IMG/VR virus record: IMGVR_UViG_3300017987_005478
Span: 62,001-126,000 of that record
Strand: one strand, 5' to 3'
From: a virus
Length of the DNA stretch: 64,000 nt
In this document: one piece after another, positions 18,243 to 55,149 of the stretch
Layout of the letters: each line of letters opens with the position of its first letter
How positions within the stretch are numbered: position 1 is the first letter of the stretch
Translations under genes and position numbers: made by a program
Notes under the pieces: generated by a model
Seen by the model: only the letters and a program-made list of their open reading frames with translations
What the model was told of the DNA's origin: nothing
Database searches by the model: none

Positions 18243-18563
18243 TTATTCAGCAATAGCCCGAACCGGTTTGACATAATTCAATAGGTCAACGACCAAATCT
18301 GTTGTCTTAAAAGTATTCAATGCTACTGCAATCGATCTTTTTGCTTCCAAAGGCATTCTCGGATCTGTCAAAGTCATGTGAAGATTTCCTTGCAGATTAA
18401 AAACCATTCCATCTCCTGTCTCTTTGACTTCAACCAAATCTGACCTGTTTATTGTAAGTAAAATTGTGTGTTTTTTGATCGTAATTGTTTTATCTGGGAC
18501 CTGTTCCTTCTTTGGTAACTTCTTGTCATTCTTTTTTGATACTCTAGTCACTGAAAGATCCAT
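18243..18563 (-). CDS. hypothetical protein, end of RNA polymerase operon
   Basis: A 106-residue protein with a lysine-rich N-terminus (VSKKNDKKLPKKEQVPDK) and a β-rich middle (TITIKKHTILLTINRSDLVEVKE; GMVFNLQGNLHMTLTD), ending in a helix. It overlaps the preceding gene by 20 bp. The family is not recognised. It is the last gene of the run that contains the RNA polymerase subunits, so a transcription-related role is possible but unsupported by motifs. Confidence 0.6.
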   Translation of the reverse strand: MDLSVTRVSKKNDKKLPKKEQVPDKTITIKKHTILLTINRSDLVEVKETGDGMVFNLQGNLHMTLTDPRMPLEAKRSIAVALNTFKTTDLVVDLLNYVKPVRAIAE

Positions 18564-19143
18564 TCTTTAATTCCCCCTCTCTGATCTTCGCTTCGATCAT
18601 CATTTTCGACTTTTCCGTAAGATTTACAAACAAACTAATCATATTGTCTTTATTATATGTTCTCAAAAAATCTGAAATTATCTGAGGTAAAAAGTGGGAT
18701 TCAATCTGTTCATCAATTACCAACAAGATTCTATCTGCATTTGACAAGCAAAAATCTCGGATATCAGACCGCAAGTCGATATTCATAAATTTCCAAACAT
18801 CGGCAATGAAATCAACATATTCATACTCTATGAATTTTACAAATTTAAAAATAGATGCGATTTCATTCGGTGTCGGAACCTCAGGAAGATGTAACTCAAT
18901 CTCGTATACTTCTTCAACTTTGTCTACCAGATCACGAGCAAGTTCTCTTCTGTCGTCAATATTATAATCATTATTTAAGATATTTTGATAATGAGCTTTG
19001 AAGTCAGGAGTACCTACTGAGTTAATCAAATCAATAAAATCATATCGTTTAAAAGCTATTTCGTCTGGATATATTTCATCGTATTCTTCGCTTTCTGGCT
19101 CTTCGACAGTTCCTAATAAAGCTTTCAAACTTTCTTCAGACAT
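18544..19143 (-). CDS. hypothetical acidic protein next to rpoB
   Basis: A 199-residue acidic protein (early EEPESEEYDEIYPDE), largely helical with hydrophobic segments such as IFKFVKFIEYEYVDFIADVWKFM. No DNA-binding or sigma-like motif is evident. It begins 9 bp after the β-subunit stop codon, so it is probably co-translated with the polymerase and could be an accessory subunit or assembly factor; this is inference from position only. Confidence 0.6.
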   Translation of the reverse strand: MSEESLKALLGTVEEPESEEYDEIYPDEIAFKRYDFIDLINSVGTPDFKAHYQNILNNDYNIDDRRELARDLVDKVEEVYEIELHLPEVPTPNEIASIFKFVKFIEYEYVDFIADVWKFMNIDLRSDIRDFCLSNADRILLVIDEQIESHFLPQIISDFLRTYNKDNMISLFVNLTEKSKMMIEAKIREGELKNGSFSD

Positions 19144-19152: not shown

Positions 19153-22100
19153 TTACTTTGAAAGAATTAATGCTGTCATATAACTTGAGAGCAAATCTCT
19201 AGCTGGTGATCCTTTAGCAATACGAAATTCAGCATTGCCCTTTTGGACAATATCAGCAATAATCTCATTTTTTGTCACATGATCATCTGACAATGGACCC
19301 ATTAACTCCGATAGCAGGGTTGGGCAGTTATAAGATATAAATGCGTATGTGTCCATTTCACCCAATCTCTGACCACCTTCTCGCCTTTTACCTGATGTTG
19401 GTTGTTTTGTTTTACCAGTAACAGGTCCTGTGGATCGAGCATGAGTTTTCTCTTCACTGATATGTTCAAGTTTATTGATATACATATATCCAACAGGAAC
19501 AGGTTTCTTTGTTTTTGTATTATATTCTGGTAATGTAAGTTTGTATCCCGTTTTTAATCCAAGAAATTTTATCACTTCATATATATTTTGGTGTGAAGGT
19601 GATTTAAATGGTGGCACCATAACAGGAACAAAACCAGAAGCCTGAACCTGCTTCATAAAAGCCTTAAATTTGGCATCAGACAATTTTGCAAAATTTGTCA
19701 GAAATGTTCCACTAAAATCTTGTTTTGGGCTTCCATCTAATCTTGGAAATACTTTTCTAAAAAGAGTAAGTACTTGAGCTTTTGTTTTCATTTTTAAAAC
19801 TTTGTTGCCCAATTCTTTAGAAATCAAACCTGTATATAGTTCAAGCAACTGTCCAACATTCATACGACCAATAATACCAATAGGATTTACTACAATATCA
19901 ACTCGGTCGCCCCACGGAGTTCTTGGCATCAATTCTTCTTTTTCAATTAGACCAATAGTGCCCTTTGCTCCAAATCTATTAGTAAGCTTGTCTCCAATAC
20001 CAATTCTCAATTCTTGCTCAATTTTAAATCTGACCAACACACCTTTTATTGGTGTTCCTCGAACAGTAACTTTATCTTTAGCTGATAAACCATGAATACG
20101 TCTGGTTCTTCGAATTAGTTTTGTCAGCTCTGGAAATTTATCATCTGCAGTATTTGAGAAGACCTCAATATCAACAATTGTGCCACCTGGACTCTTTTTG
20201 ATCATTTGTCCGCCAGCATAATCAACACCTTCTTCATCCTCATCTATACCAAGTAATTCCTCCAGTTCGCCCATTGTCTTACGTAAAATTGGTTGACCTT
20301 TTTCAACCTTCTCACCAATTTGACTGATAAACAGCAGTCGATCTTTTTCAGAAATTAATACTTCTTCAAAAATCCCATGCAAAGAAGTCAGGGTGTCGTC
20401 ACGCACTAAACGATCACTAATAGCAATACTATCCTCAAAGTTATAACCTTTGTAAGGCATAACGGCTACTAATAATGTTCGCCCAAGAGCAATACTGCCA
20501 TCAGCCACACAACTACCCTCAGCCAAGATTTGATTGGTTTTAACTGTTTGACCAACTTTTACTTTGGATTGAAAAACACTTAACGTATCTTTACCAGATC
20601 CAGATCTTAAATGGACAGGAATTATTGAAATGTTTTGTTTTCCACCTTTTGAACACTGAATTGTAATATTATCTCCAGTAACAGCGGTCACTTTGCCCGC
20701 ACACGGACTCTTTTTAACGAAATTCTCCGATAACACATTTGTCAGTAATGATTCATAACCAGATTGAACTACAGGAGGTTCTGGATCCTTTAAAGGAACA
20801 ACCTGTTTTTGTTGTGCTGAAAGCATGATAACCCTTGCTCCATCATTATTCTCAACAAATGGAGTGAGGGTTGTAGTTGTGGACAATACTCCTGATCCCT
20901 CTTTATCTGAAAATTCTTTTGGTAGAAATAATCCCCTCGCAGAAGTCACAAAAGCGTTTACAGTCAAGTGTTGTACAATACCAATATTTCCACCTTCTGG
21001 TGTATCAAGAGGGTCAATATTTCCAAAATAACTATTATGAACACTTCGAGCATTAGTTTGGATTGCTCTCTTATCTGGAATGCCTCCAACATTCTTTCCA
21101 ACGGGCGATGTCCTTGTCATCGTAGACATCTCTTCTATTGGGTTGGAATATTCCATATCTTGAACAATTTCTAATTGGTTAAAGTCAAGAAGAACTTTCT
21201 TTTGGTTAATTTTAAATTCAGCATCCTCATTACCAGCTAATCTTTGTTCTCTATAATCTGTATGTGCTGCCTGTACTTGCTTTTGAACCAAATGGACAAT
21301 AGTTTCAGAACCTCTGATTCTTTGGTTGGTTAAATCATTTCTATCTTGGACAAATCCCTCAATTACCTTTGTTGCCATATAATACATAATATCTTTCAAG
21401 TTTGAGGGTAATTGTTTATTGACTAATACTTGCTTTGCAACAGGATCAACCATATTTTCCAACATATTATTAATTAACCAAGTAGTGTTTACTCTGCCTG
21501 TCATGGCAACAAGCAGACTGTCAAAATATTCTTTCGTACCAAATTTCTCTTTTATATCATATGTGTGAACTTTGGCTTTACCAAAGGAGTCGCAAAACTC
21601 CTCTTTTAGTTCAGTATCTACCTTGGTAAATCTGATATATGATTGTCCAATATTGAAGATGAATTTTTCACCTTTCTTTGGTTTGGTGTCTGTAATTTCA
21701 TAACCCAATCCATAATCTTTCAATATTTGCTCAAAACCAAAACTGTAAAATGAGATAATCGATAGAGGCAACTTATATGAACCAAAGTAGGCTTCAAGAT
21801 ACTTTAAACGTTTTGTCCGCTTACTATGAATTCTGAACTTGGAATATGAACTCTCAAAACGAGACTCATAGGGAGCTGGAAATGTAATCGGACATAACAC
21901 AAGTTGATTAATAAGACACTTCTTTTTACCATAAACTCTAAACGTGCCTGTATTTGGATCAATTTTCGGTATGTCAATTTGGACTACGTGAGGCTTTCCG
22001 TCTTTATCATTTAGAGTTATTTGAGCTGTTTCAATGTCAGATTTATTAAGCTCTCCCTTTGCATGAGCTTTCTTAATAACTTCAACTTTCTTAACAAATA

Positions 22101-23244
22101 ACGGCTGTTCTTTTGATTCCAAAACCTTGAATGAATTTTTCAAATCCTTTTTAAGATTCTTTTGGAAGTCAACTTGTCTTTTCTGAAAAAGGTGTTCTGG
22201 CGTCTTTTTATCGACAGCTTTAGATGGGTTACTTGTAGCAACAAAAACTTCGTCAGTTGATGAAACCGGTTCCTCTGGTTTTAACATTTCATCAGCATAG
22301 TTTTTGTCAACTGCAATGAGAGCTTTACCTAAATTTTTTGGTGCAATTGCTCTTGCCATTGCTGTGGATTTTTGAGGATCACCATTCCCTTTTGTAAGGA
22401 TAGCAGCAATTGCAACTCTTTTAATATCATCACTACTAGCCGCCTTCGACGCGATTTCATCCCGTTTTTTGGGTGAAACCTCCATGTAATCGGCTATCGC
22501 ACCTCGAATCGCCGCCTTATTAGCAGGAGTAACCTGGTCACCAATTTCATCCATTACTTCTTTTGTTGTCTCACCAACTTCCATTTCTACTTCTGCCTCA
22601 ACGTGACGGAGCTTAATGGATTTGAGAATTTGATACACTCTTGTGAATTGAAATTCTCTGTCTTTGATAAGAAGTCTATGACGTGACCCATTCTCTCCAA
22701 CTAAGGTCAAAATCATATGATCAAAAGAAAATTCCATATCTTTGAGTTTTCTCAAAACGGGGAATATTTTACGATTAAGTAGAGACGGCATTTCCTTTGA
22801 GATATTAACAGAATACATCAATACTTTTTGGTAATGAGGGGGATATCTATCAAATGCTCTTTGGAGCATATTCATTAAAAGAAAACCAGCTCTTTGTCTA
22901 TAATTTGAGACTTTATATGTAGTATCAATAGCGGACATATATTTTGTCACATCGTAGAAGATATTTTGTCCAATCGGGACTTTCTGGTTTTCATTATAGG
23001 CGTATAACCCGTATGTTCGATATAGCTTTTTTGTATCTGGAGCTAACCATGTCCTTGGAACCTTCGTTCTGGGTACAACAACATAACGAGCATCAATAGA
23101 TCTAATTCCGAGATGTGGATAATCATCAACCAACAAAGAATTCTCAGAAAAATAGACAATGACAAATGGTTCTGCTGCCTTTTGCGGGAAACGTATCCCT
23201 TTGACTAGATGTGTGTATTGTCGTAACCCTTTAAATTGAATCAT
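19153..23244 (-). CDS. DNA-directed RNA polymerase β subunit (RpoB-like)
   Basis: A 1363-residue multisubunit RNA polymerase β chain, unsplit. Recognisable blocks include PVGKNVGGIPDKRAIQTNAR and NSYFGNIDPLDTPEGGNIGIVQ (fork loop region), GYNFEDSIAISDRL, RIGIGDKLTNRFGAKGTIG (equivalent of the bacterial RHGNKG block), PWGDRVDIVVNPIGIIGRMN and the C-terminal clamp GGQRLGEMDTYAFISYN. Length is about that of bacterial β. The region of residues 240-480 is lysine- and alanine-rich and less conserved. The start codon overlaps the β' stop by one base (TAATG). It would assemble with the β' product to transcribe phage genes; no α, ω or σ subunit is seen in the window. Confidence 0.95.
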   Translation of the reverse strand: MIQFKGLRQYTHLVKGIRFPQKAAEPFVIVYFSENSLLVDDYPHLGIRSIDARYVVVPRTKVPRTWLAPDTKKLYRTYGLYAYNENQKVPIGQNIFYDVTKYMSAIDTTYKVSNYRQRAGFLLMNMLQRAFDRYPPHYQKVLMYSVNISKEMPSLLNRKIFPVLRKLKDMEFSFDHMILTLVGENGSRHRLLIKDREFQFTRVYQILKSIKLRHVEAEVEMEVGETTKEVMDEIGDQVTPANKAAIRGAIADYMEVSPKKRDEIASKAASSDDIKRVAIAAILTKGNGDPQKSTAMARAIAPKNLGKALIAVDKNYADEMLKPEEPVSSTDEVFVATSNPSKAVDKKTPEHLFQKRQVDFQKNLKKDLKNSFKVLESKEQPLFVKKVEVIKKAHAKGELNKSDIETAQITLNDKDGKPHVVQIDIPKIDPNTGTFRVYGKKKCLINQLVLCPITFPAPYESRFESSYSKFRIHSKRTKRLKYLEAYFGSYKLPLSIISFYSFGFEQILKDYGLGYEITDTKPKKGEKFIFNIGQSYIRFTKVDTELKEEFCDSFGKAKVHTYDIKEKFGTKEYFDSLLVAMTGRVNTTWLINNMLENMVDPVAKQVLVNKQLPSNLKDIMYYMATKVIEGFVQDRNDLTNQRIRGSETIVHLVQKQVQAAHTDYREQRLAGNEDAEFKINQKKVLLDFNQLEIVQDMEYSNPIEEMSTMTRTSPVGKNVGGIPDKRAIQTNARSVHNSYFGNIDPLDTPEGGNIGIVQHLTVNAFVTSARGLFLPKEFSDKEGSGVLSTTTTLTPFVENNDGARVIMLSAQQKQVVPLKDPEPPVVQSGYESLLTNVLSENFVKKSPCAGKVTAVTGDNITIQCSKGGKQNISIIPVHLRSGSGKDTLSVFQSKVKVGQTVKTNQILAEGSCVADGSIALGRTLLVAVMPYKGYNFEDSIAISDRLVRDDTLTSLHGIFEEVLISEKDRLLFISQIGEKVEKGQPILRKTMGELEELLGIDEDEEGVDYAGGQMIKKSPGGTIVDIEVFSNTADDKFPELTKLIRRTRRIHGLSAKDKVTVRGTPIKGVLVRFKIEQELRIGIGDKLTNRFGAKGTIGLIEKEELMPRTPWGDRVDIVVNPIGIIGRMNVGQLLELYTGLISKELGNKVLKMKTKAQVLTLFRKVFPRLDGSPKQDFSGTFLTNFAKLSDAKFKAFMKQVQASGFVPVMVPPFKSPSHQNIYEVIKFLGLKTGYKLTLPEYNTKTKKPVPVGYMYINKLEHISEEKTHARSTGPVTGKTKQPTSGKRREGGQRLGEMDTYAFISYNCPTLLSELMGPLSDDHVTKNEIIADIVQKGNAEFRIAKGSPARDLLSSYMTALILSK

Positions 23245-26200
23245 TATTTCTTTTCCTCAACCAATGTTCCTGTAAGAACTTTCTCTAGAATGCTTGGTTC
23301 TACCTCTTCCTCGGAAATTAAACCATTACGGATTGCCTCTCCAATATTTTCAAAAGCAAGACCTTGTAGGAAACCGCTAGAAAATACGACCTTTTTAATA
23401 TTGACAAGAACAGGATCCCAAGTATTTCCTAATCTAGCTGGTATACTCAAGTTATTTTTATCTCGAATACAATTACTTAGCAAGCATTCCAAATGAACCA
23501 TATCCATATCTGCTCCAATTTCAGCATAAACACGGACAAGTTTCAAAATGAGATGGTCAACACTTTTGAATACTTCTTTGCCTGCAAGCAAACGTTCCAC
23601 GTATAATGCTTGCTCTTTTAATTCCAAAGCTTCAAGAGGAATTTCTAAAATAACACTTCCGGGAATATAACGGCAATTAATTGACTTTTTCTTTATAAGC
23701 TCGAATTCTTGTTTTTTGATATCAACAGGATAGTCCAGAACCATATTGAACATTTTGTCTTCAAATTCGATTCTTGAGGATAGACCACTCAACCAAATAC
23801 TATCCTCTTTTATTTCAATATTTTTGCTTTCAGTATAATCCATTAGATCAATTAGTAATTCACAACCTTTTTTACAGACAAGAGATCCACCCTCTTGTAC
23901 AATATATTTCTTAAGAGTGGACATATCTAAATCAGCAATTGGATCATTATTAATAATGTCTTGGAGCATATCCTTTTGTTTGATTGTGACAGCTCCGCCT
24001 GTGTGGAAGGTGCGCATGATTAACTGTGTGCCCTTCTCACCAATGACCTGCGCGGCCAGTACTCCTACATATGGTGTCCGATGTCGTTGTAAGAGTCTAC
24101 CATAGCAAGTAAGACATAATTTTCTGCTACGACAATAGATTGGACTTCTTAATTGAATCACATCACCAGGCTTGAATTTCTCTGGGTCAAATTCTGTTAC
24201 TTTACCTCTATAAATATGAAATCGACCGCTCAATCTACTAATGATATCTTTTGTCAATTTTAATGAAACGGTTTTCTTTGTTCCACAGTCTCTGAGATGT
24301 GTATGGGCTTCTAAATTATTCAATACAAATGCTAGTTTTCTGGACATATAACCTGTAGTCGCAGTATTGATAACTCGGTCAATAATTCCTTTTCTAGCTC
24401 CTGTTGAGGAGTTAAAATACTCGGTTGGACTTAAACCATCTGCAAACGATGCGGAAATAACAGGGAGGATATTTCCTTCTGAGTCTGCAATGATACCTTT
24501 TGCAACCAGAATCTGCATAGGCTGACCCCAACCTTTTGTTGATCCTGATTCTGTAAGATCGTATAAACCAGAATCTTCAAGCTTTTTCTTGACAATAGTA
24601 TACATTTGTTCTAATATCGCCATAGCCTCATCTGTATCTTTGCCTTTTAATTGTTTCTTTAGTTGGTAGACCTTTGCAGGTACTTCAAAATCATCCAGCG
24701 TAATACTCGACCCCATAATTGTTGCAAATTTAAATCCGAGTTTCTCCATACGAGATATACTCTCTCTTGCAATCTCTCCCCCATATGTATCAACCATTTT
24801 GGAAATGATACTATTTGCAACCTTTTTTGTTGCTCTCTGATTCACAAACGGGTAATTCCTTGGAAGACAACTATTAAACAATGCTTTTCCCATGGTCGTA
24901 TTAACACCACGAAATTTGACAGCGATATATGGGTCGGTTGCTTTTTCCAAATCTTCTGGAGAAACCTCTTTTGGAGAATTTTTTGGTTTAACATCTTTTG
25001 TGATTGAATATAATCCAACCATCATTTCTTTAGACAAAGAAAATGTGATTGCAGTTGATGATGAACCGGATTCTGCTCTGAGCATTTTTGCCTTGGCTTC
25101 CTCTTGTGCTTCATCTGTTAATGGATGATATAACGCCATTGCATCACCATCAAAGTCTGCATTATGTCCGCCAACCTGCATTGTACACATTTGAATTGTA
25201 TTGCCTGTAATCAAGACAGGTTTATATGCTCGCACAGATTCAGCTTGTAATGCCGGGTCACGTTTAGCTAAAACAACTCTATCCATCATAGCTACTTCTG
25301 TAGCTTCATAAAATATCTTATACAGTGTGTCTGGTATTTTATCACCAGATTTAATTGCTTTTAATACTTTACGAACACTGTCCACAGATAGTTCAAGCTC
25401 GTTAAATGCTTTAATCTCATTAGATAACATTTCCTTATCAATTCGACCAGCATATAATAACTGGTGTAAAATAAACGGCTCAAACAGTCCCACAGCCATT
25501 CTAAACGGAACACCAATTTCATTAACCTTGAGGTCAGGACCTGGTGTAATAACCGCTCTACCGCTAAAGTCTACACGTTTAGAAAGGAGTTGACTCCTAA
25601 TAATACCTTGTTTTTTAGCAACCTTAGTATGAATATACTTATGGTGTTCAACAATTGCGGTTTGTAAAGAATAGTTTAAAATATCAAAAAGTGGACCAGA
25701 ACCAGATGCACTTCTCACTTGTAGAGCTTTTCTCATAATGTCCATATAGACATCATTCATGGTATCAATAGTCCATTGGTCATCTTCATCTTTATATGCT
25801 GGTCTATGCTCTGGTGGTATGACAGGCAATCTACTTAAAAAGAGTGTTCCTGTTTTATATGCATTTTGAATGACTTTATTTAGTTTTGTGCGGTCTGTTG
25901 TTTCTTCCCTGAATTTGATTTTTGGAAACATTTTAATAAATGCTGCAATACCTGTTACACCATTTTCATCCTCTACTAGCGCGCCACTAGCATCTAGACT
26001 AAAATTCTTCTCTGTTGAAATAAACTTGACTATTTTACCATTGAGGCGTATCAGAATTTTTAATGCCTCCGGATGGATGATTTTCGCATGCAAATCAATA
26101 TACGAAAATGTGCTTCTTCTTTCTTTATCTGTGATTCCGAAAATTGATTCAGAAAACAGACCACCAACATGGAACTCGCCTGCTCTAGTAAAATATTCAG

Positions 26201-26258
26201 TTGTTGTAACAGGTTTGAGTTTCTTCGTAAACTCATCCATATTCAGGAATCGAATCAT
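23244..26258 (-). CDS. DNA-directed RNA polymerase β' subunit (RpoC-like)
   Basis: A 1004-residue β' chain, unsplit but shorter than bacterial β' (about 1400). The catalytic NADFDGD is at residues 366-372, preceded by the SKRVDFSGRAVITPGPDLKV block. Zinc-binding CRSRKLCLTCYGR and the trigger-loop region QVIGEKGTQLIMRTFHTGG lie in the second half. The N-terminal zinc finger of bacterial β' is absent: the protein begins at the equivalent of TEYFTRAGEFHVGGLFSESIFG. The clear bacterial-type blocks separate it from single-chain and crAss-like enzymes. With β it forms the two-barrel catalytic core. Confidence 0.95.
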   Translation of the reverse strand: MIRFLNMDEFTKKLKPVTTTEYFTRAGEFHVGGLFSESIFGITDKERRSTFSYIDLHAKIIHPEALKILIRLNGKIVKFISTEKNFSLDASGALVEDENGVTGIAAFIKMFPKIKFREETTDRTKLNKVIQNAYKTGTLFLSRLPVIPPEHRPAYKDEDDQWTIDTMNDVYMDIMRKALQVRSASGSGPLFDILNYSLQTAIVEHHKYIHTKVAKKQGIIRSQLLSKRVDFSGRAVITPGPDLKVNEIGVPFRMAVGLFEPFILHQLLYAGRIDKEMLSNEIKAFNELELSVDSVRKVLKAIKSGDKIPDTLYKIFYEATEVAMMDRVVLAKRDPALQAESVRAYKPVLITGNTIQMCTMQVGGHNADFDGDAMALYHPLTDEAQEEAKAKMLRAESGSSSTAITFSLSKEMMVGLYSITKDVKPKNSPKEVSPEDLEKATDPYIAVKFRGVNTTMGKALFNSCLPRNYPFVNQRATKKVANSIISKMVDTYGGEIARESISRMEKLGFKFATIMGSSITLDDFEVPAKVYQLKKQLKGKDTDEAMAILEQMYTIVKKKLEDSGLYDLTESGSTKGWGQPMQILVAKGIIADSEGNILPVISASFADGLSPTEYFNSSTGARKGIIDRVINTATTGYMSRKLAFVLNNLEAHTHLRDCGTKKTVSLKLTKDIISRLSGRFHIYRGKVTEFDPEKFKPGDVIQLRSPIYCRSRKLCLTCYGRLLQRHRTPYVGVLAAQVIGEKGTQLIMRTFHTGGAVTIKQKDMLQDIINNDPIADLDMSTLKKYIVQEGGSLVCKKGCELLIDLMDYTESKNIEIKEDSIWLSGLSSRIEFEDKMFNMVLDYPVDIKKQEFELIKKKSINCRYIPGSVILEIPLEALELKEQALYVERLLAGKEVFKSVDHLILKLVRVYAEIGADMDMVHLECLLSNCIRDKNNLSIPARLGNTWDPVLVNIKKVVFSSGFLQGLAFENIGEAIRNGLISEEEVEPSILEKVLTGTLVEEKK

Positions 26259-26698
26259 TATTTAAGACCTTTTAAATAACTAGACATAGCATTAAAATCT
26301 TTTGTGACGTTAGCTTTTCTTGCTGCTTCTGGAGCTGGGGTTGGTATACTCTTAACCAAACGAGCCTTGATACGTCTCAACTGCCCTAACGTGAGATCAA
26401 TTTTATCGGCATCAATTTCAGGTTCATTTTTCAATCTCTGAGCGAGTTTCAATGAAAAGTCAACCATTTGTGGATCGGCAATCCCCGACACGTTACAAAT
26501 TGGAAAAGGAATATCACGACCAATAGGATTTGTCATATTGATAAAGCATTTTGGATGTTTTTCTTGTTGAGCCTTTCTCATATCTCGATCAAGATACCAT
26601 TTGAGATCTGAGTGCATATCAAGAGGACTTATGAGTTTATAAGCCTTTCTGAGTAACTCGTCCAGGATTTGAAAGCTTTCTTCTAGCTTAGTTGTCAT
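26258..26698 (-). CDS. hypothetical protein, first gene of RNA polymerase operon
   Basis: A 146-residue protein, helical, with one possible CFINMTNPIGRDIPFPICN segment and a basic helix RRIKARLVKS near residue 105. It starts the transcription unit containing β' and β: a GAACAAATAATAAA motif lies 30-43 bp upstream and the ribosome site is CAGGGAGAAAATTGCT. Its stop overlaps the β' start (TAATG). No σ-like or α-like motif is recognisable, but position makes it a candidate polymerase partner. Confidence 0.62.
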   Translation of the reverse strand: MTTKLEESFQILDELLRKAYKLISPLDMHSDLKWYLDRDMRKAQQEKHPKCFINMTNPIGRDIPFPICNVSGIADPQMVDFSLKLAQRLKNEPEIDADKIDLTLGQLRRIKARLVKSIPTPAPEAARKANVTKDFNAMSSYLKGLK

Positions 26699-26727
26699 AG
26701 CAATTTTCTCCCTGTAAACGTAATGTA

Positions 26728-26741
26728 TTTATTATTTGTTC
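26728..26741 (-). promoter_or_regulatory. promoter-like motif, class ii (GAACAAATAATAAA)
   Basis: On the minus strand GAACAAATAATAAA, 29 bp before the start of the first gene of the RNA polymerase operon. It matches copies before the KH, ribonucleotide reductase, zinc-ribbon (54515) and frameshifted membrane (54998) genes. Confidence 0.55.
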
Positions 26742-26768
26742 TAATCTCCGAACAAAAAATGACGGAAA

Positions 26769-26800: not shown

Positions 26801-28246
26801 TCAGAAGTCAGCATCCATCTGTCTAGCTATGTTTCTGATCTCGCTATCCAGTTTTCCAGCAAAGAAAAGAGAGTAAAATCTGATCATATCAAGCTCAACT
26901 TTTGACAATGGTATACCTGACAATTTTGAACCATCAACAACATGACAAAAGTTTATTCTGGATATTCTACCAACAAAATAACTCAAAATTTTATGAGGCA
27001 GAATTTTTGTATTGAACCCAAAAAAGTTCTTTTGTTTATTGCTCACACTGATATACTCATGGACTTTCTTGACTGTGTAACTAGTTGCAATAGCAGGTTG
27101 TGACGTTGGGTAATATCCAAGAAGAGAAATCAAATGTTTATAATCTCCCCGAAAAATTCTCTTCAACAGACCCATTGTATAAACAGATAAAACTGCCGCA
27201 TGTTCAGGCGACAAAGTTCTGAAATGTGTATAGGGTATTGCCGTAATTCTAGATAATATGGGAAACACAAAGCATTCACACAAAGGTGAAACATATTCAA
27301 TTGTGCTTACCCGACTTTGAAAGGAGATAATGAGTTTGTCATCAGGCTCCTGATCGAAAGTCAAAATTGAAGCTCGTTCTAATTGTTCATATATTTGCTC
27401 GTATGCTATTCCCTTTAACCTACCAAGTGTGTCATTGTACGAATATGTTTTTAGATTATTTATATTGAGTCCATGTATATCTTCGGTTGAAATTGAGTCG
27501 TCGTAAATAATTGACCCTTTGTAAACTGACCTCAAGAACCATTTAACACTTTCCTCAACCACACCAACAAAGTATGTAATAGGATTCTTGTCTTCTTCAC
27601 AAAGAATCAGAATAGAGTTCATAATAAAGTTGAATATCTCGATAACGTGAACATCAATGGTTTTACATTGAATCATCTTAATGTAATCCCACATATATTT
27701 GTCCGTAATATTATACTTAAAGGTCTTCGTCTTGATAACATTGAAGATCTTAAATATGATATCTGTTTCCATAATTTCTTTTGCAATTTTATTATACACT
27801 TTTTTGTGTAATCTCTGACTCAATTTTAAGTTATCCGAGTTGGAGAAAATTGCATAGACTTTGAGATATCCTGATAATCTTGTGATCATCTCAATTTCGT
27901 CAGCTGTAAATAAAATGGAATTCTTTTTAGCTTTACTTTCATCAACAAATTGGCTAAAATCAATTCCAGAATTGTCAACATAACTATCAACAAATTCCTT
28001 TAATTGTCTCACGTTTTTAAGAAGGGTTGGATATCTATGTTCTTTATTCTCCACATAATCACGAATTAAAGAAACAAACCATTTGTCAAATTCTTTTCCG
28101 CAAGAACCAGAAACCCTCTCAATAAAACTAGAAACAATATGAAATTTGTTTGTGATAGATGAAGAGGTTAAATTGAGTCGCAGAATCTCTTTATCTCCTA
28201 AAGAAACTAACCACTCTTTTGTAGTGCTTTTCTCAAACTTAATCAC
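26801..28246 (-). CDS. hypothetical protein, possible virion component
   Basis: A 481-residue protein with no recognised domain. It is mostly helical with alternating hydrophobic segments and few cysteines; residues near 380-420 include LGYYPTSQPAIATSYTVKKVHEYISVSNKQ. It is a single-gene unit: a 292-bp structured leader precedes it and a terminator follows it, which separates it from both the tail genes and the polymerase operon. Its own expression unit suggests independent timing. A virion or polymerase-associated role is a guess. Confidence 0.6.
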   Translation of the reverse strand: MIKFEKSTTKEWLVSLGDKEILRLNLTSSSITNKFHIVSSFIERVSGSCGKEFDKWFVSLIRDYVENKEHRYPTLLKNVRQLKEFVDSYVDNSGIDFSQFVDESKAKKNSILFTADEIEMITRLSGYLKVYAIFSNSDNLKLSQRLHKKVYNKIAKEIMETDIIFKIFNVIKTKTFKYNITDKYMWDYIKMIQCKTIDVHVIEIFNFIMNSILILCEEDKNPITYFVGVVEESVKWFLRSVYKGSIIYDDSISTEDIHGLNINNLKTYSYNDTLGRLKGIAYEQIYEQLERASILTFDQEPDDKLIISFQSRVSTIEYVSPLCECFVFPILSRITAIPYTHFRTLSPEHAAVLSVYTMGLLKRIFRGDYKHLISLLGYYPTSQPAIATSYTVKKVHEYISVSNKQKNFFGFNTKILPHKILSYFVGRISRINFCHVVDGSKLSGIPLSKVELDMIRFYSLFFAGKLDSEIRNIARQMDADF

Positions 28247-29380: not shown

Positions 29381-29398
29381 AAAGTAATATATATAGAC
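29381..29398 (-). promoter_or_regulatory. promoter-like motif, class i (CTATATATATTAC)
   Basis: On the minus strand CTATATATATTACTTT, containing TATATTAC. It begins 36 bp after the terminator of the tail operon, as expected for the start of a new transcription unit. About 210 bp of leader follow before the next gene; that 302-bp gap holds this motif and the two terminators and no gene I can support. Confidence 0.55.
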
Positions 29399-29433
29399 AT
29401 TATTGTTATAAATGAAACATACTGACAACGGAA

Positions 29434-36230: not shown

Positions 36231-37136
36231 CTACAACAAGAAGACGGATTTCTTTTTCACCTTTTTCTTTTCATTAAAAGGTTGTAACAACTCTGTAGGA
36301 TCCTCTTCACAGTATGAACGATAGGGACACCATTTACAGTGTTCGTTAGTAGCGCCCAACGGCTCCGGTACGGATTTTCTTGCTATACTAGTTAACAAGA
36401 TGGGCGCCCGTTTCAAATACAGTTCTGCTTTCTGTAGATTTACAGGAATATCAAAAGGATATACGCCCTTTAGATCTCTTGTAAAGTAAACTACAGTAAC
36501 AGTTTTGATAGAATAATTATATTCTGTATTGAGAATATACGCGTAAATATTCCCTTGAACATAATGATCTTCAATATACTTATTCTTAAATTTCTTCTTG
36601 TCAATAGTTTTATATTCTAACAAAAAGTGATCACGTATACCGTCAATTCTACCTTTTACTTGAAATTTTTCACTTACTATTGTTTTCTCAACCTCTGTAT
36701 GATCATAGAGGTTTTGAACTACTTCATGAACAGTATTACCGACTTGATTGATAAGATAGAGATAAGCGAATTGATATTGTTTTTCGATATCTATCTGATA
36801 CTTCATCCTGACATAATAATTCTTTCTAACACAGGATGTTAACTCGGTAACGGATACATAAGGACGTTCATAAGTTTGACTCTTTTTGTGACCGTCGATA
36901 AGACGCGATCTCATCAAAGACTCAAACTTAGAAACGTCGAAGCCTTTCGATTCGAAAGTTGATTTAGTTAGAGGAATGTCCGCGTGGATCTTCTCCGAAC
37001 ATTCCTCTAACAATTTTTTAGTACTATCTGCAACGACTTTTTCTTGTTTCTCTTCTTTGACTTGAGAAACAACGCGCTCTTGTTGTTGATGTGATTCTAG
37101 ATATTCGACTAATTTAGCGTATTCACTTTGTGGCAT
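36231..37136 (-). CDS. Cas4/RecB-like PD-(D/E)XK nuclease with Fe-S cysteines
   Basis: A 301-residue nuclease. The catalytic set reads H137, D165 (GRIDGIRDH) and E174-x-K176 (LLEYKT), followed by a Q-x3-Y helix (YVQGNIYAY). One cysteine at 102 (SCVRKNYY) and three in CKWCPYRSYC near 263-272 match the four Fe-S ligands of Cas4/AddB-type enzymes. The first 80 residues are a charged extension not found in Cas4. Such phage nucleases act as 5' or 3' exonucleases in recombination. It starts the replication and repair half of the window and is not next to any CRISPR array. Confidence 0.82.
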   Translation of the reverse strand: MPQSEYAKLVEYLESHQQQERVVSQVKEEKQEKVVADSTKKLLEECSEKIHADIPLTKSTFESKGFDVSKFESLMRSRLIDGHKKSQTYERPYVSVTELTSCVRKNYYVRMKYQIDIEKQYQFAYLYLINQVGNTVHEVVQNLYDHTEVEKTIVSEKFQVKGRIDGIRDHFLLEYKTIDKKKFKNKYIEDHYVQGNIYAYILNTEYNYSIKTVTVVYFTRDLKGVYPFDIPVNLQKAELYLKRAPILLTSIARKSVPEPLGATNEHCKWCPYRSYCEEDPTELLQPFNEKKKVKKKSVFLL

Positions 37137-47752: not shown

Positions 47753-48519
47753 TACTCCTCCGCATCTTCTCCTGTATCGACCAAAGCAGAACGGGTATAC
47801 AAATTAATATCAATATCAGCAATGGTCGTAGAGAATTTATTTGCTGATACATTTGGTTGGACATTAAACATTTGAAATGCAATATCTCCGTCATGGTCAA
47901 TAATAAACGGTGTAATAACCATATGCGAAGAGCATTGCAAAACCTTGTCAGTAACAAGACCCTCTAGAAATTTGGCGTACTGATCTCCAGATTGAGTCTT
48001 CGCATATATTGAGGCTTCTTCACCTTCTACATCAACTTGTACCGTATTGACACTAAAACCAGCAGATACAATACGCATTCTGTCAGAAATGAAACTGGAA
48101 ATATCCGCACTGAGTATGAGATCCTCATCATTCATTGCAAAAATGTTTGCCATCTCCTCTTCAGGTATAAATTTATTATCCATGTAATCAAGATCTGGCA
48201 TTTCAAATCTCAATACAGAATATTGATCTGAAAATGAAAATGATCCGTTTTCTCCCTCAGGCACATCAACTGTAATCTCAACCTCTTGTTCAGAAAACAT
48301 TTTAAGTAAGTCGAGTTTTTGTTTTAAACCAGAAAATGGAATTGTTATATCACCAACCAAAGGCGTCAGGTCAATCTCAAATACAGAGGTATTTTCATTT
48401 GCTCGTTGGCGGACAATACCTTCACGAATATCTGCATCATTACAATGTTCTCTCAACACAGACAAACATCTCAACAATTCGTCAAATTTTTCAGCATCCA
48501 AATTAATAGTTTGCTCCAT
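47752..48519 (-). CDS. putative sliding clamp (gp45/PCNA-like)
   Basis: A 255-residue, β-rich acidic protein. The strand pattern ITIPFSGLKQKLDLLKMF, FSFSDQYSVLRFEMP, LILSADISSFISDRMRIVSAG, VQVDVEGEEASIYAKT and DGDIAFQMFNV resembles two clamp domains like T4 gp45 (228 residues). The polymerase-interaction surface cannot be judged by eye. Context supports it: clamp loader, primase and flap nuclease lie within 4 kb. No other clamp candidate is present in the window. Confidence is moderate because clamps are weakly conserved in sequence. Confidence 0.5.
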   Translation of the reverse strand: MEQTINLDAEKFDELLRCLSVLREHCNDADIREGIVRQRANENTSVFEIDLTPLVGDITIPFSGLKQKLDLLKMFSEQEVEITVDVPEGENGSFSFSDQYSVLRFEMPDLDYMDNKFIPEEEMANIFAMNDEDLILSADISSFISDRMRIVSAGFSVNTVQVDVEGEEASIYAKTQSGDQYAKFLEGLVTDKVLQCSSHMVITPFIIDHDGDIAFQMFNVQPNVSANKFSTTIADIDINLYTRSALVDTGEDAEE

Positions 48520-48534
48520 TACACAATCTCCTTT

Positions 48535-48717
48535 CTATTTTCCCCATCCATCTTGTTTACCGTGGGTAGGCCACAGCTCTTTCGCACACTTATACACACC
48601 TGTTCCACTCATTTGTGAAAAGGTTAGTTCACCTTTAACTCTTTTGATTGTCGCTAGAACTTTCGGATCCTTCTTTGCTACAAGATCCAGTATCATTCTC
48701 GCTCGCTTTTTTCTCAC
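48535..48717 (-). CDS. small basic protein with GTG start
   Basis: A 60-residue frame whose GTG at 48717 has GAGGGAGGTGAAGA in front, a better site than many neighbours. The product begins RKKRARMILDLVAKKDPK and has one CAKELW segment. It overlaps the C-terminal, low-complexity end of the 179-residue gene by 83 bp in another frame. It fills the gap before the clamp candidate. Unknown function. Confidence 0.5.
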   Translation of the reverse strand: MRKKRARMILDLVAKKDPKVLATIKRVKGELTFSQMSGTGVYKCAKELWPTHGKQDGWGK

Positions 48718-49174
48718 TCTTCACCTCCCTCTCCTTTTTCTTCATTTTTCTCTTTTTCTTCTTTTGTATTTGTGCAATTTCTCTTGTTAAAGATTGTACA
48801 AATTCCTCGTTATATTTTTTGACTATTGTTACATAAACAAACTTGTCATCTTTGTTTTCCATTGAATTTGAATAATCCAATGTAACAAAACACTGCTCTG
48901 TATTCTCAATAATCTCCATAACACGTTCTGCAATATGCTTCGTACCAGAGTCCGAATTAATCGGTATTGAAAAGACCATTAATACAGAATCATCACCTTC
49001 ATATGTAAAATTGAGCATATAAAAATTAGCACCCAATATCTTAAATACATGATCATCCGATGCTGCTTTACAATACAAATTAAAGTAATTGATATCTTCG
49101 AGATCACCCGTATACCTCAAATTTGTATTGATTGTCTTTTGAAAAATTTCTTTCATCCGTTCCTGAATCATCAT
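48635..49174 (-). CDS. hypothetical protein with lysine/serine-rich tail
   Basis: A 179-residue protein. Residues 1-125 look globular (NINYFNLYCKAASDDHVFKILGANFYMLNFTYEGDD-type α/β, then CFVTLDYSN), and the tail from 135 is KKKKRKMKKKEREVKSEKK followed by Ser/Asp/Glu. The globular part could be a small chaperone or adapter. The tail is where a second gene overlaps. Not recognised. Confidence 0.58.
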   Translation of the reverse strand: MMIQERMKEIFQKTINTNLRYTGDLEDINYFNLYCKAASDDHVFKILGANFYMLNFTYEGDDSVLMVFSIPINSDSGTKHIAERVMEIIENTEQCFVTLDYSNSMENKDDKFVYVTIVKKYNEEFVQSLTREIAQIQKKKKRKMKKKEREVKSEKKASENDTGSCSKEGSESSSDNQKS

Positions 49175-49189
49175 TGGTAATTTCCTCTC

Positions 49190-50173
49190 CTAAATTATGA
49201 ACTTCTCTACAACAACAGGCGTGTCGTTAAAATCTTTTCCCATTTTATTGTAATAGACAGTAATCGTATCTATAATATGTTTATTGTAATGTTTAATCTT
49301 TTTGTAGTAATCAAGATCAACATTCCTATCTGATAAAATATGAGCATTGACACGAAATATTGATTCATGAAATGCAATACTTTTTATTAAAGCATGATAC
49401 GACGTTGAAAGTCCAGCAGCATATAAACAACTCTGACTTTTCATGTCTATTGTGTCAAAAATATGTTCGGCGTATATGTCAAAAATTCCCTCAGCAAGAA
49501 CCACATCTCTAGAAAATTTCTTCGTACTGGGAAGTTTATAATAATCGAGGAACTTAGATGATTGGACTCTAAGTTTATAATATCGGAAGGATGATTGAGG
49601 ATCAATATTTCTTAAAATGAGGACTGAGCCGTGTTCTGTTAAAAACCCAACAAAATTTGTTTGTAGAAAATCTTTGATTCTAAATAGTTGTTCATCTACT
49701 GCAATATCATTCATTGCAATAAAAGCATTTATATCAAACACCAATCCTTTAATACTCGGAATACTAACATTTGCAAATTTTAAGCGTTGTTGAATATATC
49801 GATATTTATACTGAAAAATATTTTCATTTAATGGTGGAGTTTTAATTTCTGTCGGACGAATAACATTCCTGTCAAATTCCAACCGTTTTTTAACGTTGGC
49901 TTTAACAAGTTCTTTATTAACAAATTTATCAGGGTCTGCTCCACTAATATACCTTAATAATTTTGTTATAGTTCCCTTTTGTTCACAACCAGCATGAAAA
50001 CAATGAAAAATAGGAGCTTCTATGCTTATCCATAAATGATAGTGACCTTTATCTTGACCTGCTTCACACCAAGGACAACGACAAACGATATTTTTTGGAG
50101 TTGTTTTTATTGGATCTCCAAGGTGGTCTCGCAAGTATTCAATAAATTCGTCTTCATAGATTCCTACTGACAA
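49190..50173 (-). CDS. DNA primase (zinc-binding + TOPRIM, gp61-like)
   Basis: A 327-residue primase. The N-terminal zinc domain reads CRCPWCEAGQDKGHYHLWI...FHCFHAGCEQKGTI (about residues 31-65), and VVLAEGIFDIYA near 225 is the TOPRIM start, followed by a serine-rich YAAGLSTSYH turn and HILSDRNVD. It would make RNA primers on the lagging strand. No helicase domain is fused. A replicative (DnaB/gp41-type) helicase is not seen in this window. Confidence 0.85.
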   Translation of the reverse strand: MSVGIYEDEFIEYLRDHLGDPIKTTPKNIVCRCPWCEAGQDKGHYHLWISIEAPIFHCFHAGCEQKGTITKLLRYISGADPDKFVNKELVKANVKKRLEFDRNVIRPTEIKTPPLNENIFQYKYRYIQQRLKFANVSIPSIKGLVFDINAFIAMNDIAVDEQLFRIKDFLQTNFVGFLTEHGSVLILRNIDPQSSFRYYKLRVQSSKFLDYYKLPSTKKFSRDVVLAEGIFDIYAEHIFDTIDMKSQSCLYAAGLSTSYHALIKSIAFHESIFRVNAHILSDRNVDLDYYKKIKHYNKHIIDTITVYYNKMGKDFNDTPVVVEKFII

Positions 50174-50394
50174 TTGTTTTCTCCATTCTTTTTATTGTTA
50201 TTACATTTCGCCTTATTATATTCAATACTTCGATAGTTTTCAATACCGTTCAAATGTCTTAGGAGGTTAAAGATTGTTTTGTCATATATTTTTGCGATTT
50301 TTATAGATTTCTTTGGATTAATACCCAAATCGCGCAATCTACAAAAAATGTGGAGCGGGTTCAACACATGTTCGATATACTTTGGGAGTCTCAT
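50164..50394 (-). CDS. hypothetical basic small protein
   Basis: A 76-residue protein beginning MRLPKYIEHVLNPLHIFCRLRDLGINPKKS, helical and basic, ending in an Asn/Lys-rich tail (KCNNNKKNGENNCQ). CGGAGTGACAG precedes the ATG. It overlaps the primase gene by 10 bp, so it is probably translated with it. A helix-turn-helix-like arrangement in the first 45 residues is possible but not clear. Confidence 0.55.
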   Translation of the reverse strand: MRLPKYIEHVLNPLHIFCRLRDLGINPKKSIKIAKIYDKTIFNLLRHLNGIENYRSIEYNKAKCNNNKKNGENNCQ

Positions 50395-50448
50395 CTGTCA
50401 CTCCGTTACGAGGTATTTTTATAATGTTCAGTATCTTAGTCCCCTTTG

Positions 50449-50862
50449 TCATTCTTCTTTTGGAAAGGTCAACAATAAACTTTCTTCCATTTCTTCTTTA
50501 CGGTCTCCGCCGCAAATACCCGCATTGACTCCCGCTCGCCTTGCTTCAACCCAATCCAAAATTCCTTTACCATCACACTTTGTACAGGCGGCAGTCCTGC
50601 TACCTCCAGAACCTCCACATTGATCACAAATTGCATAAAGTTGGTCATCTCGAAAATCAATATAACCTGTACCAGAACAAACAGGACAATATTCTCCGTT
50701 CCACGAATGTCCTTGTCCATTGTTGAGTTTGGTAACTCCAGTCAAACCAGTTCCACCACACGCCTTACATTCAACAGTTTTCGTAAGGTCCTGATATCTT
50801 TTTGCAAAGTTGTGTAATTTTTCTGCTCTTCTTCTCTCCGTTGCTTCAAGAAAATTACCCAT
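50449..50862 (-). CDS. DnaJ-type zinc-finger protein without J domain
   Basis: A 137-residue protein containing four CxxCxGxG repeats: CKACGGTG, CPVCSGTG, CDQCGGSG and CTKCDGKG, the exact signature of the DnaJ cysteine-rich region, which binds two zinc ions. There is no HPD-containing J domain before it and no client-binding domain after it. The start at 50862 gives MGNFLEAT; the longer frame to 50892 is less likely. It could be a disulfide/zinc chaperone or an adapter for host DnaK, or bind nucleic acid. Confidence 0.8.
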   Translation of the reverse strand: MGNFLEATERRRAEKLHNFAKRYQDLTKTVECKACGGTGLTGVTKLNNGQGHSWNGEYCPVCSGTGYIDFRDDQLYAICDQCGGSGGSRTAACTKCDGKGILDWVEARRAGVNAGICGGDRKEEMEESLLLTFPKEE

Positions 50863-50864
50863 CG

Positions 50865-51092
50865 TTATCCTGGCGGAGGTTTTGGTCCGCACTTTCCTTT
50901 CTTTCTGTTAATATGTTGTTCCATTTCATAATCAGATGGTCTCAACACAAAATCTGCAAATTTCTCAGCAAGACTCACCACTTCACTTGGGTGATGTCCT
51001 CTGCCATCAAACATCGCTTTAGCAACTTTCAAACATTCCACTCTTGCCCACTCATTTTTTGAATAAGGTGGGACAATCATAAATTGTTCCAT
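50865..51092 (-). CDS. hypothetical small protein
   Basis: A 75-residue protein (MEQFMIVPPYSKNEWARVECL) with a conserved-looking helix (SEVVSLAEKFADFVLRPSDYEMEQHI) and a basic end KKGKCGPKPPPG. Resembles short uncharacterised proteins that occur near phage replication genes. It ends 2 bp before the DnaJ-zinc-finger gene start. Confidence 0.6.
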   Translation of the reverse strand: MEQFMIVPPYSKNEWARVECLKVAKAMFDGRGHHPSEVVSLAEKFADFVLRPSDYEMEQHINRKKGKCGPKPPPG

Positions 51093-51110
51093 TTTTTCTC
51101 CACTCTGCTC

Positions 51111-52097
51111 CTATTTACCTTTCGCCGCCTTCGTGTACTGACCGAGCGCTTGGATGACTTCGAGGACCATTCCCATGAAGTGCATACTAGGCACGAGGCA
51201 ATCTTTATGTGAATTCGCATACTTGTTAATAACAATCTTCGCAGCAACGTTAATATCTTTGTTGAAAAATAGTTGGTTGTATACACTTCTAAACTCCAAA
51301 TCATGTTCATTCAATAAATTCGTAATAACACCGACCACTTTATTAATCTTGTGCATTTGACCGGCTTTAATATAACTACATATTTCAATCATCGAACTTA
51401 CTAAAACGCGCTCAGACGTGAGCACTGATTTTTTATTAACCTTTAATCGACCTCTTATAGAACTCTGTTGTAAGTGGTCAATAACGCGTCTGACGTCGGG
51501 ATATAACCCATCAATGACAAATTTTACATCTCCCTCGTCATATTTAATACCCTCTGTGTCCAACATTTTGAAACAATATTTTTGGACATATTCAACAGGT
51601 ATTTGTTTAAAAATATACGGGGTAAATCTACTCTGCACAGGCTCTGGAATTTTGGAAAGATAATTACAAGTAATTATGAATCGACCATATTTAACTTGGT
51701 ACTTCTCAATAACTCCTCTCAGAGAACTAAATGCTGAATCTGTGAGGTAATCACCCTCGTCAATAAAGACGATTCTCCACCGATCTTTTCCTGCAGGTGG
51801 GATTTTGAGGAATGGTTCAACAACTTTATCAACAAAATCAATACCTCTTGTTTCTTTTGCTGAACCATTAATAACAAGTGTATTATCTTTTGGATTTTGT
51901 AATACACCTTGTTTTGACGTGATAATTCTTGCGAGAGTAGTTTTACCACCACCAGGCGGACCACTCATTAATAAATTTGGTATTTCTTTAGTTTTAATGT
52001 ATCTATGTATTTGCTCTTTATGAGCTTCTGGTAGAACCAAATCTTCAAATTTTCTTGGTCGATATTTCTCAACCCACAATGCTTGCTCTATCTTCAC
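51111..52097 (-). CDS. clamp loader large subunit (RFC/gp44-like AAA+)
   Basis: A 328-residue AAA+ clamp loader. It opens WVEKYRPRKFEDLVLPEAHK, the RFC signature; Walker A is SGPPGGGKTT near residue 43, Walker B VFIDEGDYL, and the sensor strand FIITCNYLSKIPEPVQSRF includes the SRC-like arginine region (here SRF). It should load the sliding clamp on primed DNA. The small subunit (gp62) is not obvious; the gene upstream (52119-52517) is an unverified candidate only by position. In T4 the order is 45-44-62, so gene order differs here. Confidence 0.92.
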   Translation of the reverse strand: MKIEQALWVEKYRPRKFEDLVLPEAHKEQIHRYIKTKEIPNLLMSGPPGGGKTTLARIITSKQGVLQNPKDNTLVINGSAKETRGIDFVDKVVEPFLKIPPAGKDRWRIVFIDEGDYLTDSAFSSLRGVIEKYQVKYGRFIITCNYLSKIPEPVQSRFTPYIFKQIPVEYVQKYCFKMLDTEGIKYDEGDVKFVIDGLYPDVRRVIDHLQQSSIRGRLKVNKKSVLTSERVLVSSMIEICSYIKAGQMHKINKVVGVITNLLNEHDLEFRSVYNQLFFNKDINVAAKIVINKYANSHKDCLVPSMHFMGMVLEVIQALGQYTKAAKGK

Positions 52098-52118
52098 AAA
52101 TTCCTCCGTTCATATATT

Positions 52119-52517
52119 CTAGCATTCTGGTAAATCTTGACATGATGCTAGAAAATGCAACTGCTCTTGTTCACTTACAAATTCACCAATAATATTAGAT
52201 TTTATCGAATGTTCAAAAGCTTCTATGGCATCATCACCTGTGATAATATTCGTCAAGTCATCAACATAAATAAATAGATCAGTAATCGCAATCTGCTCAA
52301 CACCTTTAACCTCTTTTAAACCCAACACAACTTGAGCTGATTCATCTGGTTTTGCAGCAACATGAAAAAGTAGTTTTACAAGTCCCTGTTCAGCAAAACA
52401 TGATAGGATCATCATGTTTGTACATAGAATCTCAACATCATCTCTATCATATTGTTCATGAATATCAACATTCCATGATTTAATTTTTTTGACAATCCTT
52501 TTCATAAGTCTTGACAT
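52119..52517 (-). CDS. hypothetical protein upstream of clamp loader
   Basis: A 132-residue protein beginning MSRLMKRIVKKIKSWNVDIHEQYDRDDVEILCTNMM. It is mixed α/β with a hydrophobic strand pair (LVKLLFHVAAKP; AQVVLGLKEVKGVEQIAITDLFIYVDDL) and an acidic C-terminal helix. No motif is recognised. It starts the transcription unit with the clamp loader, and a GTAACAAATAAATA sequence upstream (52533 region) is a weak relative of the class ii motif. Confidence 0.6.
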   Translation of the reverse strand: MSRLMKRIVKKIKSWNVDIHEQYDRDDVEILCTNMMILSCFAEQGLVKLLFHVAAKPDESAQVVLGLKEVKGVEQIAITDLFIYVDDLTNIITGDDAIEAFEHSIKSNIIGEFVSEQEQLHFLASCQDLPEC

Positions 52518-52560
52518 GTTATCACCTATTTATTTGTTACCCATAGAGAAAAAATAGACA

Positions 52561-52593
52561 AAAAAAGGAGTGGAGAAACCCCCATCCTTTTTT
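52561..52593 (-). terminator. Rho-independent terminator
   Basis: AAAAAAGGA and TGG pair with CCATCCTTTTTT across a one-base bulge and a short loop; the minus-strand RNA ends in a run of T. It lies just after the stop of the membrane protein gene at 52598. Confidence 0.75.
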
Positions 52594-52597
52594 CGTT

Positions 52598-52882
52598 TTA
52601 TACATGCTCTTCCATCTCCTTAGTCGGAAATAATCTAGCATGAATAGCGCAAATCAAAACTGCAAGTAATGCAATCGGTCCAAGAGCAATCGCCAGAACT
52701 GCTGGCACCAAACCCGTATATATGTGTTTTGCCCAAAAGACCAAAAATAGCATTAGTAAACTACTAATCGACCATGCCCACTTTAAAAAGTTTACAAAAG
52801 GCATTCCGATAGCTATTAACAACATCCCGAAAATAATTATACTTGTAAAAAACGATAGTTGTGAAATTACTTTCTCACTCAA
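52598..52882 (-). CDS. three-helix membrane protein
   Basis: A 94-residue protein with three hydrophobic segments (FFTSIIIFGMLLIAIGMPF, SISSLLMLFLVFWA, VPAVLAIALGPIALLAVLICAI) and a short charged tail. It is the last gene before a terminator, just downstream of a second small membrane protein. Holin-like or superinfection-related roles are possible, but the three-helix pattern alone does not decide. Confidence 0.65.
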   Translation of the reverse strand: MSEKVISQLSFFTSIIIFGMLLIAIGMPFVNFLKWAWSISSLLMLFLVFWAKHIYTGLVPAVLAIALGPIALLAVLICAIHARLFPTKEMEEHV

Positions 52883-53015
52883 TTGTCAGCTCTCCTTTCA
52901 CTGTGACGCAGCCTTTTTTCTCAACGCTTTCACCATATGATGCTGCCTTATTCATAGCATAAAGAGCATAACACACTACAAAACTTGCGATACACCATAA
53001 CAAGACCGTAAACAC
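52875..53015 (-). CDS. small membrane protein with GTG start
   Basis: A 46-residue protein, MFTVLLWCIASFVVCYALYAM followed by a polar tail (NKAASYGESVEKKGCVTVKGELTIE). The GTG at 53015 has TAAGGAGGCTACT in front, so I prefer it to the earlier in-frame start at 53132, which would overlap the helicase by 107 bp. One N-terminal transmembrane helix is clear. Unknown function. Confidence 0.58.
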   Translation of the reverse strand: MFTVLLWCIASFVVCYALYAMNKAASYGESVEKKGCVTVKGELTIE

Positions 53016-53025
53016 AGTAGCCTCC

Positions 53026-54818: not shown

Positions 54819-54832
54819 TTTACTCACCCCCT

Positions 54833-54998: not shown

Positions 54999-55005
54999 TC
55001 TCCTT

Positions 55006-55019
55006 TTAAAATTTGTTCG
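55006..55019 (-). promoter_or_regulatory. promoter-like motif, class ii (GAACAAATTTTAAA)
   Basis: GAACAAATTTTAAA on the minus strand, preceded by CC, just upstream of the frameshifted membrane-protein frame and overlapping its ribosome-site region. Confidence 0.4.
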
Positions 55020-55050
55020 GACTCGATAAAAATACTACTAACAACTATCT

Positions 55051-55146: not shown

Positions 55147-55149
55147 CTT

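Follow-up and report, generated by a model that had tools for sequence, protein, structure and literature searches.

Introduction

The genomes of jumbo phages of the phiKZ/AR9 type encode a virion RNA polymerase (RNAP) together with a second, non-virion RNAP. All characterised virion enzymes of this type are split (PMC7598289), and in the known jumbo phages they consist of about five fragments. In phage SPN3US, gp244 is the missing end of the virion RNAP beta' subunit and was identified in virion heads, and a role in head targeting has been proposed for the N-terminal extension of gp241 (PMC5105663). AR9 gp226 recognises the -10 element, and both gp226 and phiKZ gp68 belong to the non-virion RNAP (PMC9209446); the late promoters of AR9 have the form AACA-N6-TA/G (PMC7598289). 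Reviews of 2020 and 2026 treat the origin of the virion and non-virion enzymes, by duplication or by two acquisitions, as unsettled (PMC7598289, PMC13282480). Unsplit phage beta and beta' subunits have already been published for the mReC Caudovirales (Weinheimer & Aylward 2020, PMC7481178).

Here, we analyse a window of 64,000 nucleotides (G000:C1:62001-126000) from an IMG/VR record that is itself incomplete at 127,917 bases. The original prediction placed in this window an intact 'bacterial-type' RNAP distinct from the phiKZ/AR9 enzymes; the chains are indeed unsplit, but in sequence comparisons they group with the phiKZ/AR9-type virion RNAP. The window probably holds the virion RNAP operon of a large contractile-tailed phage that has a dual transcription system of its own.

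An unsplit virion-type RNAP operon

The minus strand of the window encodes an unsplit beta' subunit of the virion RNAP type (beta'1, 23244..26258, 1004 amino acids) followed by an unsplit beta subunit of the same type (beta1, 19153..23244, 1363 amino acids). As predicted, both reading frames are uninterrupted from ATG to stop and share the single base 23244. Pfam recognises Rpb1 domains 1, 2, 3 and 5 in beta'1 and Rpb2 domains 3, 6 and 7 in beta1 (best E-value 2e-50), the Rpb1_1 and Rpb2_7 matches scoring under the Pfam gathering score. Beta'1 retains the NADFDGD catalytic motif (25143..25163, minus strand, residues 366-372), an intact bridge helix and trigger loop, and the second zinc site. 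The N-terminal zinc ribbon is missing from it and is present in beta'2, the corresponding subunit of a second RNAP described below. The preserved active site and the absent N-terminal zinc finger of the original prediction both stand. With beta' ahead of beta, the operon runs opposite to the bacterial order rpoB-rpoC. Beta1 is extended at its N-terminus by about 450-480 residues that bacterial beta subunits do not have. In an alignment, the rifampicin-contact positions 516 and 526 are altered in both the window core and the second one. PhiKZ-type phages are rifampicin-independent, and the changes at 516 and 526 would fit such independence. Neither sigma70 region 4 nor an alpha subunit was found in the whole of this incomplete record, in searches whose controls did give matches; the original prediction had likewise seen neither.

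Next to beta' is p146 (26258..26698, minus strand), a conserved small protein with two invariant cysteines whose gene lies upstream of beta' and adjoins it in relatives, where the p146-beta'-beta neighbourhood is kept. Downstream of beta1 are two further conserved neighbours, p199 (18544..19143, minus strand), which has a conserved C-terminal end, and p106 (18243..18563, minus strand). Neither p146 nor p199 could be assigned to a recognisable family. These were the three partners originally proposed for the enzyme, and p146 and p199 hold up as conserved neighbours; the best-supported partner is a fourth gene absent from that list, at 26801-28246.

Tail genes, encoding a gp5-like hub and an amidase, flank the RNAP operon, and the identification of TerL, sheath and baseplate genes marks the contig as that of a tailed phage. 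No major capsid protein was identified among the part of the record proteins scanned with PHROGs. The T4-like replication genes that had been reported are present, comprising a gp44-like clamp loader, topoisomerase II subunits, UvsX, SbcC/SbcD and Dda. Their supposed contrast with a phage-encoded RNAP falls away, as AR9, like the window phage, also encodes a UvsX-like recombinase. A separate gene of the window (36231-37136, minus strand) matches a Cas4-like exonuclease or 'CRISPR-Cas associated' family.

A second unsplit RNAP in the same genome

Outside the window, and thus invisible to the original prediction, the same record carries a second unsplit beta/beta' pair (record 47891-54109), made up of beta'2 (record 51401-54109, 902 amino acids) and beta2 (record 47891-50941, 1016 amino acids). 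This pair is also ordered beta' before beta and is about 33% identical to that of the window. The window-type RNAP also occurs in 29 of the 50 contigs fetched by beta'2, the seven contigs initially found by the window beta' are all within the beta'2 list, and among the 26 of the 50 related contigs that reach at least 80 kb, 24 carry the two types together.

Just outside the window, upstream of the non-virion-type RNAP genes, lies a ubiquitin-like cassette (record 54611-58964; L008:14611-18964) in which Pfam recognises a JAB-like protease and a pair of ThiF/E1-like proteins; it also encodes a 129-residue protein bearing an HPN motif like that of E2. The cassette genes likewise have homologues beside RNAP genes in L300, a contig of this phage group that holds a non-virion-type RNAP pair and was binned in an archaeal (Thermoplasmatales) metagenome-assembled genome (MAG), which may reflect a host link or mis-binning.

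Affinities of the two enzymes

When compared with the RNAP subunits of AR9, phiKZ, SPN3US and phiR1-37, beta'1 and beta1 find their best matches among virion subunits, and beta'2 and beta2 among non-virion subunits, a reciprocal pattern seen in AR9, phiR1-37 and phiKZ; the identities of the AR9 and phiR1-37 fragments were taken independently from record annotation. The N-terminus of the AR9 virion beta' matches beta'1 with an E-value of 4.5e-32 and beta'2 not at all, and that of the AR9 non-virion beta' reaches 5.7e-12 with beta'1 versus 4.6e-18 with beta'2. Profiles of the two beta families agree with this pattern, apart from a single conserved virion exon of AR9, which matches beta2 better. 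In a concatenated tree of 1774 columns, the window type joins the jumbo-phage virion RNAP with support of 99/90 and the second type joins the non-virion RNAP with 95/96; a clade uniting the window type and the second type (v1+n2) is rejected in the concatenated analysis (p-AU 0.025). A tree of beta' alone, which has long branches, leaves the virion versus non-virion placement undecided (p-AU 0.29 for the v1+n2 clade). The SPN3US rows were excluded from later trees because of their very long branches. These sequence comparisons place the pair of the window with the virion RNAP of phiKZ/AR9-type phages and the second pair with their non-virion RNAP.

The original prediction had named placement inside a bacterial clade as one of the outcomes that would count against it. 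Nineteen bacterial sequences, mostly from different phyla, form a single clade (100/99) with every phage sequence outside it, and the window RNAP is therefore not a recent bacterial capture. A search across genomes for a bacterium or prophage carrying this RNAP found only ordinary rpoC genes and a single phage contig binned in an archaeal MAG, and no match to a bacterial genome exceeded about 32% identity.

A candidate sigma-like subunit

Upstream of p146 on the same strand, the window encodes p481 (26801..28246), a predicted homologue of the sigma-like promoter-specificity subunits AR9 gp226 and phiKZ gp68. The likeness to gp226 was put down as a guess ahead of the fold and profile tests. Searches with the p481 sequence only (PHROGs, PDB, jumbo-phage genomes) gave nothing convincing, but fold and profile-profile comparison did match. 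An AlphaFold2 model from 19 sequences reached a pLDDT of 80; an earlier model from only 4 sequences (pLDDT 60) was set aside. The only significant PDB matches of the model in Foldseek are chains 7s01_A and 7um0_A of the AR9 non-virion RNAP holoenzyme, of about 460 residues (gp226), with an E-value of 2.4e-6 and a TM-score of 0.41 for 7s01_A, compared with 1.8 for the best E-value beyond AR9. A viral structure library yielded 12 matches below 1e-3, every one with a probability of 1.00, among them AR9 and other jumbo-phage proteins. HHalign aligned p481 with the gp226 family over 424 columns (probability 97.3, E-value 9.8e-10), and in a gp226-family scan of 74 record proteins p481 ranked first (46.9; runner-up 2.8). 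One strong copy apiece was detected in 12 of 15 large contigs (G002 has one weak match in addition), and even contigs longer than 300 kb carry a single p481. Its gene is close to beta'1 in most contigs; in G043 it is not beside it. Judged by modelled fold and profile similarity, p481 is a gp226-like sigma analogue and the best-supported candidate partner of the window core.

Promoter-like motifs

Two conserved motifs were recognised in the record. M1 (GAACAAAWTATAAA) is promoter-like and lies upstream of both RNAP operons; in the window it reads ATTAGAACAAATAATAAATACA (26724..26745, minus strand), 26 nt ahead of p146. M2 (TAATATATATAG) is AT-rich and occurs ahead of the sheath and TerL genes. 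The record holds 14 strong M1 sites (at least 17 bits) and 10 strong M2 sites, versus 0-1 in ten shuffles each, counts that are optimistic since both matrices were trained on the same record. As a test independent of that training, M1 is also found just upstream of the p146-beta'-beta operon in about ten relative loci, most of them with RNAPs at about 50-60% identity, and in L023 it precedes the gene cluster containing the non-virion RNAP. In relatives, M2 lies antisense upstream of p481. The window has an M2-like site at 29382-29400 on the plus strand, opposite to the operon and between the amidase and p481 genes, and a similar antisense site with no downstream gene is kept in many relatives.

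Splitting of beta' and trigger-loop inserts

Although beta' is intact in most of the 43 loci scored, it is encoded by two genes in L013-L016, L245, L248, L249 and L253, divided at a junction after the trigger loop that corresponds to residues 775-782 of beta'1 (23913..23936, minus strand). The same gap parts virion RNAP fragments of phiR1-37. In L013-L016, the last 225 residues of beta' form a gene of their own of about 240 amino acids. The C-terminal segment of beta'1 matches phiR1-37 g148, which is annotated as a virion structural protein and belongs to the homologue class of SPN3US gp244. A tree of 37 rows comprises 30 unsplit forms, including the most divergent rows (L255, L256 and L251), and 7 forms split at residues 775-783 and scattered over the tree; about five changes of state are required, three of them forced by well-supported branches, and such counts do not reveal the direction of change.

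Two loci (L250:781-4917 and L260:7338-11585) bear inserts of about 370 residues in the beta' trigger loop near residue 749. These start with Cys and finish with His-Asn ahead of Ser/Thr, and from these signatures they look like inteins. The split L248 is the sister of the insert-bearing L250. Other interruptions lie elsewhere in the gene: in the divergent L280, L290 and L157 the virion-type beta' is additionally split near residue 280, ahead of the catalytic motif, unlike in phiKZ, and in L259 (7282-11917) beta' is interrupted at residues 368-374, within NADFDGD, by about 1 kb that may represent an intron or a homing element.

Proposed explanation and alternatives

According to the reading that we prefer, the intact beta'1 and beta1 chains would form the catalytic core of a virion RNAP, p481 would recognise promoters much as AR9 gp226 does, and p146 and p199 may be assembly or packaging partners. 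By analogy with phiKZ and AR9, one RNAP would be packaged and injected to begin transcription, with the other synthesised in the course of infection; both the packaging of beta'1/beta1 in the virion and the early and late division of labour between the two enzymes are suggested by that analogy. The fragmented virion RNAPs of jumbo phages would have arisen by gene fission from such an unsplit form, which we infer to be ancestral, with fission occurring partly at a hotspot that follows the trigger loop, a region in which inteins may also insert. A more ambitious version, which we put forward tentatively and at somewhat less than even chances, holds that both RNAPs were kept unsplit, that the operon in the window specifies an entire holoenzyme fit for injection, made up of beta', beta and a dedicated sigma analogue, that the virion and non-virion enzymes derive from one ancient phage RNAP duplicated before splitting, and that the splits of the isolates came later and were driven by mobile elements.

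One alternative concerns the assignment of roles. Because gp226 and gp68 are non-virion RNAP subunits (PMC9209446), p481 is the sole gp226-like protein found and is not always beside beta'1, and M1, with an AACA like that of AR9 non-virion promoters (PMC7598289), stands ahead of both operons, p481 may act with the other core or with both. On this view, the packaged enzyme would not be the one of the window. We regard such reversed or shared roles as unlikely, given that most contigs have p481 close to beta'1, that the core in the window falls with virion subunits, and that the end of beta'1 resembles a virion structural protein. About as doubtful is a secondary origin of the intact beta', by re-fusion of a gene that had been split before, in place of an ancestral unsplit state. 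Every characterised phiKZ/AR9-type virion RNAP is split (PMC7598289) and the changes on the tree carry no direction, but 30 of 37 rows, the most divergent ones included, are unsplit, and the split forms are scattered, with repeated changes.

Two further alternatives concern descent. If the two RNAPs were the product of a duplication within this lineage, they would not be one-to-one orthologues of the phiKZ/AR9 virion and non-virion enzymes; the beta'-only tree is compatible with such a history, as it fails to reject the v1+n2 clade, but the AU test on the concatenated data and the reciprocal best matches to virion and non-virion subunits oppose it and make it improbable. Recent capture of bacterial rpoB/rpoC genes could explain why both chains are intact and why Pfam models of the bacterial type recognise them, but with the bacterial sequences forming one clade, all phage sequences on the opposite side and bacterial genome matches so distant, we consider it extremely improbable.

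Comparison with known systems

With the preferred reading of a virion-type operon, intact virion-type and non-virion-type RNAPs and a sigma-like factor stand together in one phage group, and the history of the split enzymes therefore becomes directly testable, including origin by duplication versus two acquisitions and the process of splitting itself. The RNAP sequences of AR9 and phiKZ are fragmented and fast-evolving; here both enzymes are full-length, splits appear in progress and the sigma analogue is recognisable, so that this diverse group supplies sequence data, along with simpler proteins for structural and biochemical work. Studies that use phage RNAP in the tree of life must separate two paralogues per genome.

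The closest published enzymes outside the jumbo phages are those of the mReC Caudovirales, which, like that of the window, comprise unsplit tailed-phage beta and beta' subunits lying outside bacteria. As in mReC, this tailed-phage contig combines NADxDGD with Pfam-identified beta and beta' chains that each reach at least 800 amino acids, and the two probably belong to the same wider group. Occurrence in an already described phage group, which the original prediction had named as counting against it, thus applies in part, to the unsplit beta/beta' (PMC7481178). The main text of the mReC paper contains none of the words 'virion', 'two copies' or 'split', and we found in it no description of two RNAPs per genome or of a sigma-like partner (PMC7481178). 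New are the second unsplit pair, the virion/non-virion grouping, the gp226-like p481, the recurrent beta' splits and the conserved M1. We found no description of intact virion and non-virion pairs together in the open-access literature, and one elsewhere is possible; a paper on the 'moraphage' lineage was ruled out as an earlier description, as it reports no RNAP. Rhizobium phage TM30 and Vibrio phage Va2 also have a full-length phage beta' but form a separate deep branch, with one beta' gene each and no beta found by the profiles used here.

Compared with the virion RNAPs of phiKZ, AR9, SPN3US and phiR1-37, the window core is alike in catalytic sequence and likewise without alpha or sigma70. 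An N-terminal extension as in beta1 is present in the virion beta of AR9, phiKZ and phiR1-37 and in SPN3US gp241, SPN3US gp244 and phiR1-37 g148 are homologous to the separable C-terminal segment of the window-type beta', and a non-virion RNAP accompanies the virion type in both. M1 shares AACA with the AR9 non-virion (late) promoters, but its spacing is one base shorter. The predicted fold and full-length profile match of p481 resemble AR9 gp226 and phiKZ gp68, although identity is only about 12% and its gene adjoins a virion-type core, whereas theirs are subunits of the non-virion RNAP. In contrast to the fragmented virion RNAPs of known jumbo phages, the window core consists of two intact chains, with beta' split in some relatives, and the window clusters both core genes with a sigma-like gene and retains the full NADFDGD motif and trigger loop.
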